Below are positions 34,267 to 35,671 of a stretch of DNA of 45,613 bases, in pieces. A program made the translations under genes and the position numbers. The DNA is taken from the NCBI GenBank assembly GCA_902805545.1, contig CADCTD010000147.1:1-45613 (forward strand). The letters are read 5' to 3'. Under the pieces are notes generated by a model. That model did no database searches. It saw nothing but the letters and a program-made list of their open reading frames with translations, and was not told the origin of the DNA. Every line of letters begins with the position of its first letter. Position 1 is the first letter of the stretch. Source of the stretch: an uncultured Craurococcus sp. Its GTDB lineage: Bacteria > Pseudomonadota > Alphaproteobacteria > Acetobacterales > Acetobacteraceae.

Positions 34267-34332
34267 CGGGCGCCCCTCCCATCCGCGTGAACCGGCTGCG
34301 GCTTAACCGGAAGACAACCGATCCAGACATGC

Positions 34333-34366
34333 GAAAGGCCCGGGCGGTTTCCCACCCGGGCCTTTC
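34333..34366. terminator. Strong bidirectional terminator
   Basis: GAAAGGCCCGGG and CCCGGGCCTTTC form a 12-bp perfect stem with a 10-nt loop. It sits 67 bp after the LysR stop and 33 bp after the stop of the 25-codon minus-strand frame; A/T-rich outer arms make it usable from either side. Confidence 0.85.
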
Positions 34367-34399
34367 CATTGCTGCAGCCGTTGCCGGCCTAGGCAGGGC

Positions 34400-34477
34400 T
34401 CAGGAAGCCATCTCCGCAGTGGCGGTGACGATGATCCAGGCCGCAGGCAGGGCACGCGGCATATGGCAATGAGACAC
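34400..34477 (-). CDS. Unrecognised 25-residue protein with an exceptional ribosome binding site
   Basis: GTG at 34477 to TGA at 34400. It begins MSHCHMPRALPAAW, goes on with a hydrophobic stretch (IIVTATA) and ends EMAS. The 16 bases just before the GTG, GAAAGGAGGTGATCCA, are an uninterrupted complement of the expected 3' end of alphaproteobacterial 16S rRNA, with seven bases between the AGGAGG core and the start. A terminator-like hairpin stands on each side (34517-34538 upstream, 34333-34366 downstream), so it is a unit of its own after livK. It could be a secreted or membrane micropeptide, a regulatory leader or a dual-function small RNA; I know of no match. Confidence 0.55.
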   Translation of the reverse strand: MSHCHMPRALPAAWIIVTATAEMAS

Positions 34478-34493
34478 TGGATCACCTCCTTTC
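34478..34493 (-). promoter_or_regulatory. Full-length Shine-Dalgarno sequence
   Basis: The minus strand reads GAAAGGAGGTGATCCA directly before GTG 34477. Most genes in this window have four to six pairing bases, whereas this has 16 in a row. Such a long match may either drive very strong initiation or slow the ribosome's escape. Confidence 0.7.
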
Positions 34494-34516
34494 GGTTGTT
34501 GACGACTGGGGCGAAG

Positions 34517-34538
34517 ATGGGCCCGTAAGGGGGCCCAT
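34517..34538. terminator. Hairpin after livK
   Basis: ATGGGCCC and GGGCCCAT make an 8-bp perfect stem with a 6-nt loop, extended by a few A-T/G-U pairs, 9 bp past the livK stop. It probably ends the liv transcript and separates it from the 25-codon frame. Confidence 0.7.
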
Positions 34539-34546
34539 TTCAAGCA

Positions 34547-35671
34547 CTACATCTGCACGTAGTCGCCGTTCTTCCAGACATAGAAGACATAATCCGGCAC
34601 GGTGACATCGCCTTTCCGGTCGAAGGCGATGTCGCCGAGCACGGTCTGCCACGGGCCGCTCGCCTTCATCGCATCGGCCACCCTCTTGGCGTCGAGGCTG
34701 TTGATCTTGGCCGCGGCGGCGGCCCAGATCTGCACGGCGGCATAGGTGTAGAGGACGTAGCCCTCGGGATCGATGTTCTTCGCCTTGAAGGTCTGCACCA
34801 CGGAGGCGGCGCTGGCGCGCTTGCGCGGGTCGCTGCTGAAGGTCATCAGCGCGCCCTCGCCGGCGGCGCCGGTGATCTGCCAGAAATCCTTGGTGACGAG
34901 GGCGTCGCCGCCGATCAGCGTCACATTCATCCCCTGCTCCTTGGCCTGGCGGAGGATGAGCCCGGCCTCGGTGTAGTAGCCGCCGACATAGATGATCTCG
35001 ACGCCGGCGCTCTTCAGGCGGGAGACGAGGGCGTTGTAGTCGCGCTCGCCCGGGTTGTAGGCGGCATAGATCGTCTCCTGCACGCCGCCGGCGTTCAGCG
35101 CCTTCTTGGTCTCGTCGGCGAGGCCCTTCCCGTAGGCCTGGTTGTCGTGGAGGATCGCCACCTTCTTGCCCGGATAGGTGCGGGCGATGTAGGTGCCGGC
35201 GATCTGGCCCTGCTGGTCGTCCCGCCCGCAGACGCGGAAGGTGTTCCAGGCGCCGTCATCGGTGAATTTGGGGTTGGTGCTGGCCGGGCTGATCTGCAGC
35301 ACCCCCTCCTCCGCATAGACCTTGCTGGCGGGGATGGAGCTGCCGGAGCAGTAGTGGCCGGCGACCAGGGCGACGCGGCGCCCGGCGAGCTGGTTGGCGA
35401 CGGAGACGGCCTGGCGCGGGTCGCAGGCATCGTCGGCGATCTCGAGGGCGAGCTGGCGGCCGAGCACGCCGCCCTTGGCGTTCAGGTCGGCGACGACCTG
35501 TTGCGCGCCGGTCTTCATCTGCTCGCCGGCGGCGGCGTTGGAGCCGGTCATCGGCCCGGCGCAGGCGATGCGGATGGGCCCGCCCCCTTGCGCGAAGGCC
35601 GGGCGGATCAGCCCCGGGCCGGCCAGCGCGATGCCGGCGGTGCCGGCGATCAGTCCCCTGCGATTGAGCAT
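34547..35671 (-). CDS. livK: Branched-chain amino acid-type ABC transporter, substrate-binding protein
   Basis: A 374-residue periplasmic binding protein (Peripla_BP_6 family). The signal is MLNRRGLIAGTAGIALAGPG, with an RR that allows Tat export, cleaved after AFA. The mature start PIRIACAGPMTGSNAAAGEQ is typical of LivJ/LivK; related proteins also bind amides, urea or aromatic acids, so leucine is not certain. It is the last gene of the liv cluster, 83 bp after livF, and has an AGGGAAAG ribosome binding site. A hairpin follows the stop. Confidence 0.93.
   Translation of the reverse strand: MLNRRGLIAGTAGIALAGPGLIRPAFAQGGGPIRIACAGPMTGSNAAAGEQMKTGAQQVVADLNAKGGVLGRQLALEIADDACDPRQAVSVANQLAGRRVALVAGHYCSGSSIPASKVYAEEGVLQISPASTNPKFTDDGAWNTFRVCGRDDQQGQIAGTYIARTYPGKKVAILHDNQAYGKGLADETKKALNAGGVQETIYAAYNPGERDYNALVSRLKSAGVEIIYVGGYYTEAGLILRQAKEQGMNVTLIGGDALVTKDFWQITGAAGEGALMTFSSDPRKRASAASVVQTFKAKNIDPEGYVLYTYAAVQIWAAAAAKINSLDAKRVADAMKASGPWQTVLGDIAFDRKGDVTVPDYVFYVWKNGDYVQM

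Follow-up and report, generated by a model that had tools for sequence, protein, structure and literature searches.

Why a reading frame of only 25 codons should be led by a complement of the whole 3' tail of 16S rRNA is the question raised by a locus of an uncultured Craurococcus sp. In the 45,613-nucleotide stretch of DNA analyzed here (the window), the sequence GAAAGGAGGTGATCCA (34493–34478, minus strand) stands directly before a GTG start codon (34477–34475), and the 25 codons that follow (MSHCHMPRALPAAWIIVTATAEMAS) are closed by a TGA ending at 34400, so that frame and stop together occupy 34400–34477. An earlier note on this DNA offered two explanations, either a functional peptide made in large amounts or an RNA that is itself the function.

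Complementarity to the 16S rRNA tail

The 3' end of the 16S rRNA in the same genome is ...CTGGATCACCTCCTTTCAAGG (also given as CTGGATCACCTCCTTTC). The 16-base complement that had been described before GTG 34477 (34478–34493, minus strand) is real, and it reaches 17 unbroken Watson-Crick pairs with the organism's own 16S tail when the first G of the GTG is counted. We refer to it as an extended Shine-Dalgarno (SD) sequence. In the entire assembly (4.53 Mb, 97% complete, 192 contigs) AAAGGAGGTGATCCA is present at two places, the 3' end of the 16S gene (L140, SSU 27–1515) and the RNA locus. The complement is also the longest SD-like site in the window, as had been claimed: AAGGAGGTGATCC has one exact copy there, and the next best are three sites with two mismatches. 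Sites with at most three mismatches to AAGGAGGTGATCC number 29 in the window, compared with a shuffle mean of 9.6.

Two trivial origins were considered and ruled out. A chance SD is incompatible with the two-place count in the assembly, with the mismatch counts in the window, and with the class-wide pattern and its empty reversed control (see below). A misread fragment of a 16S gene would not fit a sequence whose sense is that of the 16S complement, which stops at the tail, and which leads into a start codon and frame that are conserved.

Distribution and relation to a known RNA family

Contrary to the initial impression that no described family exists, the region 34501–34336 (minus strand) matches Rfam family RF01867 CC2171 ('caulobacter sRNA'; type 'Gene; sRNA') over model positions 1–159 with 89.8 bits, above the gathering score of 75. 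The CC2171 RNA was reportedly found by Landt in 2008. Of 385 genomes of the class, 85 have a match to RF01867 with E <= 0.001, and 14 of these exceed the cut-off. The family is present in 68 of 150 genomes of the taxonomic family (11 above the cut-off), and among 14 control genomes it is found only in Caulobacter vibrioides.

A search pattern made of the SD and start codon, AAAGGAGGTGATCCNNTG, has a single match in each of 63 of the 385 class genomes, and its reversed control has none. In 299 genomes drawn from the phylum, AAGGAGGTGATCCNNTG is found in 49; by a hand count on the pattern alone, the 86 genomes that belong to the same class account for 47, and the 213 genomes outside it for two. 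These two are unlike the RNA (one has a 141-codon frame, the other a CTG start with 15 codons), and we rejected the idea of a cross-phylum RNA. Named relatives among the matches listed include Sphingomonas, Novosphingobium, Ruegeria, Bradyrhizobium and Mesorhizobium, as well as Methylobacterium, Bosea, Brevundimonas and Roseococcus. When 19 loci of varied clades were compared with Rfam, only Bosea reached the RF01867 gathering score, and the scan of the rest returned no other family at the position of the RNA. The relatives span Alphaproteobacteria beyond the reach of Rfam, and RF01867 covers part of a class-wide RNA.

For comparative analysis 80 loci were taken from the pattern search for SD and start codon, which yielded at least 117 matching stretches. 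Removal of L098, L099 and L137 (no sufficient SD match) and of L210 and L280 (long ordinary genes) left 214 sequences overall. The pattern used to select loci L202–L281 contained the SD and NTGTC; these loci cannot inform on SD conservation and were left out there. The sets found through Rfam are biased towards the SD, since the Rfam model favors it. All of these sequences are related, and the counts given below are not independent events.

Weak similarity to Rfam RF02346 ar35 is seen for the 3' part of the RNA (34329–34461, minus strand; 19.8 bits, below the gathering score of 45). A plasmid BLAST search with the RNA found only partial matches, in eight records that cover 21–28% of the query (the 5' block) and have no annotated feature beneath. 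CC2171 is listed, in the excerpted description of Rfam 15, among the families given one extra covarying pair (PMC11701678). Among the listed papers and excerpts covered by our literature search, which took in few subscription journals, none describes the frame or the SD-mimic pairing and none was recognized as giving a function for CC2171.

The reading frame is conserved but the peptide is not

The earlier note named conservation of the frame beside the SD in relatives as a test, and such conservation is found. The first in-frame stop follows after 14–35 codons in 204 of 206 sequences, compared with a mean of 69 and a maximum of 85 after shuffling (L101, L138 and L139, with no start codon in register, and five sequences with at most 260 nt downstream were excluded). 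The two exceptions are L063 (55 codons) and L136 (37 codons, with an undetermined base). No sequence has a stop before codon 14 in this frame, vs 98 of 205 and 65 of 204 in the other two frames. The spacing of internal landmarks points the same way. In an alignment of 64 family sequences (A1, which does not contain L135, L101 or L136), column 77 is the first G of an internal GGAT (G in 63 sequences, T in L120). It lies 40 nt from the start codon in 51 of the 64 sequences and 28, 37, 43 or 52 nt from it in the remaining 13, and every one of these 13 departures is a multiple of three (−12, −3, +3, +12). The distance from the stop codon to the pairing segment P1b, described below, occurs in all three phases (25, 26 and 13 sequences). 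An open frame of bounded length is kept against insertions and deletions.

In one lineage, represented by L063 and L322, the frame after the same SD is 55–56 codons long. By eye its product resembles a small exported protein (MSKSMK(I/T)LA...) with a signal-peptide-like sequence, unlike the others seen.

The amino acid sequence behaves differently from the frame. In 15 loci linked to LivK, 0.22 of the single-base codon differences in the short frame are synonymous vs 0.70 in LivK, and changes at third positions (490) are not in excess of those at first (691) or second (652) positions; purifying selection at the amino-acid level is not detected in these loci. The synonymous fraction is near neutral in Sphingomonadales (0.27 vs 0.27 expected) and in the Acetobacteraceae type (0.29 vs 0.27), a label that rests on the named loci of the same type L211, L239, L256 and L263. 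None of three single changes is synonymous among four Bradyrhizobium sequences. Peptides are wholly different between clades, and an NCBIfam search with the window peptide returned no match. There is a mild synonymous excess in Rhodobacteraceae (0.37 vs 0.27) and in the Mesorhizobium type (0.35 vs 0.23; five sequences), and judging by these fractions some constraint on the peptide is possible in the two types. A conserved peptide motif, MSHC, was considered and rejected as it is accounted for by pairing of the RNA; codons 3–5 pair in helix P1, so that the conserved N-terminal SHC is readable as a trace of this pairing.

These data bear directly on the view that the locus is an ordinary small-protein gene with an exceptionally strong SD and that the 25-residue peptide is its product. 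The conserved position and length of the frame agree with this view, as does the slightly raised synonymous fraction of the Rhodobacteraceae and Mesorhizobium types. However, the low synonymous fraction next to LivK, the missing third-position excess, the neutral values in the Acetobacteraceae type, Sphingomonadales and Bradyrhizobium, the explanation of the N-terminal codons by P1 and the lack of an NCBIfam match for the window peptide all argue against it, and we consider such a gene very unlikely. Abundant production of a functional peptide, the first of the two original explanations, is unsupported. That the frame is kept while the peptide is not suggests that being translated, rather than the peptide, may be what matters. 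Here a frame is retained by an RNA that is classed as non-coding, whereas no peptide is retained across the loci that we tested.

A close parallel in this respect is rnTrpL of Sinorhizobium, a dual-function small RNA with a leader ORF. Both are short RNAs with a short frame, translated in rnTrpL and predicted to be translated here. However, the 14-residue peptide of rnTrpL is described as functional in the excerpted account (PMC10117765), whereas the peptide sequence here is largely free.

Two helices at the start site

The first helix, P1, is formed by codons 3–5 and the segment directly 5' of a terminator-type hairpin (AAAGGCCCGGG...CCCGGGCCTTT, 34334–34365, minus strand). In the window P1a is CATTGC (34466–34471, codons 3–4), and its partner P1b is GCAATG (34367–34372), immediately 5' of the hairpin. 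Covariation in P1 is class-wide. The two sides change together as CATTGTC/GACAATG, CATTGC/GCAATG, CATCGC/GCGATG and CATGGTT/GACCATG, and also as GTGAG/CTCAC, GTGAA/TTCAC, GCATC/GATGC and others, and 95.8% of P1 cells are paired in alignment A1. The mean pairing energy of P1a with its own partner is −7.94 kcal/mol over 187 unique sequences, compared with a mean of −5.09 and a best value of −5.68 in 5000 permutations of the partners. (Four sequences with no terminator call or less than 150 nt were left out, which gave 210 sequences, 187 of them unique.) For some P1 types, among them TCTAGAGTG and TCTCGTTCC, foreign partners pair at least as well. A long-range helix between the 5' block and the pre-terminator segment, as in RF01867, is present.

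The second helix involves the SD itself. Within the frame lies CTGGATCATC (34430–34439, minus strand), a near copy of the 16S tail, whose partner is GGTGATCCAG of the SD and start codon. A search for the best downstream partner of the SD in 207 sequences gave more stable pairing than in dinucleotide shuffles (mean z −1.44), with 130 sequences below −1 and three above +1. The last base of the SD has a Watson-Crick partner in 67 of 115 sequences that carry GGAT in the frame, vs a mean of 44 and a maximum of 58 in 10,000 permutations, and a base other than A at this position tends to come with a matching change of the partner. RNAalifold, run unprompted on the 64-sequence alignment, recovers most of the SD-mimic helix together with the terminator hairpin, the latter with covariation. 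Counting pairs over both helices, 91.6% of cells are paired compared with 27–54% in slid versions, and the covariation score exceeds that of all 500 shuffles. Two of the five measures of this count are not above the shuffles, namely double-change pairs (as high in 239 of 500) and further pair types (463 of 500).

Folded alone, the window RNA is 3.8 standard deviations below its shuffles and places the SD inside the SD-mimic helix; in the same fold P1a and most of P1b are unpaired. Single-sequence minimum free energy folds of 211 sequences (L217, L243 and L250, with little DNA downstream, were left out) are too variable to show a masking helix. The SD core, scored as helical when at least seven of its 11 bases are paired, is in a helix with downstream sequence in 66 cases, in a hairpin with itself in 76, and otherwise arranged in 69. 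In Rhodobacteraceae a partner of the SD (CCCACCTCC and similar) lies 3' of the stop codon. Close copies of the 16S tail downstream of the frame are seen in L275, at about +95 from the start codon (CGGATCACCTCC), and in L321 (GCGATCACCTT).

The P1 and SD-mimic helices interleave because the order of the segments is SD, P1a, mimic, P1b. If formed together they would produce a pseudoknot that masks the start site. The structure that we propose shares with RF01867 a full-length match above the gathering score, the 5' block, the long-range helix and the terminator hairpin. However, the Rfam consensus places a 2-bp hairpin at the SD and lacks the SD-mimic helix, and the family is typed as an sRNA, not as coding. 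The SAM-II and preQ1-II riboswitches also hide an SD in a pseudoknot and are located before the gene that they control. The RNA studied here resembles them in its predicted pseudoknot, but its own frame looks like a throwaway and no constant gene lies downstream.

Conservation of the SD and its partners

The two sides of the SD-mimic helix are not equally conserved. The 15-base 16S complement GAAAGGAGGTGATCC is identical in all 67 family sequences. More distant sequences found through Rfam retain the full 15-mer in 45 of 67 cases, and the 22 that depart from it do so outside AAGGAGGTG in every case. The internal partner drifts to G-U pairs or mismatches, and variation is one-sided in six of the ten pairs. 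Since the SD stays identical though its internal partner varies one-sidedly, a second partner appears to hold the SD fixed, and on this comparative evidence that partner is plausibly the 16S tail. The SD bases would then be shared between the 16S tail and the copy of this tail within the RNA itself.

A decoy is an alternative reading of the RNA. It would titrate 30S subunits or block 16S tails, much as 6S RNA acts on its own target, with the fold as an off state and the frame as a means to release the ribosome. A complement of the whole 16S tail that is longer than the other SD-like sites of the window and identical in 67 of 67 sequences would suit this role, as would the single match per genome in all 63 class genomes that bear the pattern. 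However, an abundance near that of free 30S would be required, and a decoy by itself gives no explanation for masking of the SD. We regard this alternative as unlikely, and its anatomy is the same as that of the switch proposed below. 6S RNA mimics the binding site of a central machine, RNA polymerase, and has no comparable reading frame. The present RNA likewise mimics the binding site of a central machine, but 6S RNA targets RNA polymerase and lacks a frame.

Alternatively, the RNA could be a classical sRNA that pairs with mRNAs, or a sponge of anti-SD sRNAs, in which the SD-like stretch is the seed and translation is incidental. This would agree with the Rfam type 'Gene; sRNA', and a sponge is known in Caulobacter, where CrfA inactivates its sibling sRNAs SisA-D according to the excerpted report (PMC12559287). 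However, maintenance of the frame is unexpected for an incidental ORF and the match to the 16S tail is letter for letter, and we think this explanation quite improbable.

A putative ribosome-responsive switch

The comparison shows an RNA that is conserved, that matches the 16S tail rigidly, that maintains a frame whose content is largely free, and that has two covarying helices at the start site. The proposal that the RNA itself is the function fits these observations, with the frame kept beside the SD, its codons not kept in the LivK-linked loci, and the 15-mer rigid. Catching ribosomes or competing for 16S tails, as was also suggested, is a possible role.

We favor a ribosome-responsive RNA switch with a throwaway ORF. 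The 5' complement covers the whole 16S tail and would let a free 30S subunit dock through many more base pairs than a normal mRNA allows, and the docked ribosome would translate the frame of 14–35 codons, whose content is largely free. Without a ribosome the SD would fold onto the internal copy of the 16S tail and codons 3–5 onto the pre-terminator segment, and both helices together would form a pseudoknot over the start site and thereby conceal it. The RNA would stay open as long as it is translated and would close when initiation fails. The state of the RNA may in turn set an output, such as RNA stability, pairing to other RNAs or titration of 30S subunits. We infer the coexistence of the helices, the mutual exclusion of folding and 30S binding, the holding open of the RNA by translation and the dependence of an output on its state; as a whole, we lean slightly towards this reading being correct. 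If translation itself is the function, the RNA would sense ribosome supply without a ligand, a special codon or a protein product.

A broader and tentative idea, which we doubt will hold, is that the RNA is a class-wide ribosome counterpart of 6S RNA. As an ideal mRNA mimic it would capture free 30S subunits by pairing with the entire 16S tail, send them through a content-free frame and hide itself in the pseudoknot formed with its own copy of that tail. It would gauge or adjust the supply of initiating ribosomes, shifting SD-led against leaderless or SD-less translation. Sensing of ribosome supply through translation itself would be of relevance in this class, since an SD is missing from many of its start sites; the excerpted ribosome profiling report gives 75.4% for Caulobacter (PMC4117421). 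As a point against the switch, most intergenic ncRNAs of Caulobacter are untranslated in that excerpt, with the exception of two earlier-predicted ncRNAs.

Transcription unit and genomic context

The RNA appears to be transcribed on its own. Of 209 unique upstream regions, 132 have a TTG at −69 to −61 relative to the start codon, vs 19 and 18 in two control windows. The corresponding element in the window is TTGAAA (34543–34538, minus strand; −66 to −61), a −35-like sequence right after the livK stop codon; a scan for consensus sigma-70 promoters at the locus found none. From the position of this element and the onset of conservation near −24, the 5' end of the RNA probably lies at about −30 (34502–34510). 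The conserved leader CAACAAC (34495–34501, minus strand), which is within RF01867, occupies −24 to −18 and has 0.93–1.63 bits per position in 67 sequences. Taking a 5' end at about −30 and the end of the terminator hairpin, at a median of 148 nt after the start codon, the sequences predict a stand-alone RNA of about 175 nt with its own promoter. An RNA of Mesorhizobium huakuii, MH_s33, labeled RF01867 by its authors, belongs to a set in which, in the excerpted report, only MH_s6 is without RNA-seq products (PMC5596092).

The two terminators proposed earlier for this region fared differently. That of livK does not hold up: the hairpin on the livK side (34520–34537, between the −35-like TTGAAA and the SD) is GC-rich without a T run, and a strict terminator scan scored nothing in 34280–34640. 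This hairpin is at the position of a promoter spacer and may be the livK 3' end, a promoter-spacer feature, or both. The strong terminator after the frame stands as a terminator-type hairpin, found both in the RNAalifold consensus and in the fold of the window RNA, but the same strict scan leaves it unscored.

An attenuator or a leader would be expected to precede a gene on the same strand that it controls. In the window no same-strand gene follows that a cis-acting attenuator or riboswitch could control, and the downstream gene is a convergent LysR regulator. Downstream neighbors were called as simple longest-ORF picks at 137 loci; 65 are on the opposite strand and 54 on the same strand, and 18 loci gave no call. 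Neighbors are mostly stable inside clades and different between clades. In part of the Acetobacteraceae type a Peripla_BP_6 protein (LivK) is upstream, and in the Rhodobacteraceae type a Vut_1 transporter precedes the RNA (20 loci) and an RF-1-domain gene follows it (18 loci). The latter gene favors a leader, as it is on the same strand and begins 164–301 nt past the start codon in 15 of the loci. However, with a convergent gene in the window, opposite-strand neighbors in 65 of 137 loci and no constant downstream gene across them, we reject a leader in general and consider it highly improbable as an explanation of the RNA, while a leader role in the Rhodobacteraceae type is possible.

Other downstream genes, assigned by eye, are a branched-chain aminotransferase in 11 loci, of which the named ones are Sphingomonadales, and RNase R in Bosea and Methylobacterium (three loci). 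Among L079, L090, L091 and L202–L271, the RNA of the Rhodobacteraceae type is located between the Vut_1 transporter and the RF-1-domain gene in many loci. By eye this RF-1-domain gene is arfB, which encodes a ribosome-rescue factor. In Hyphomonadaceae (L257) a related RF-1-domain gene adjoins the RNA but is divergent.
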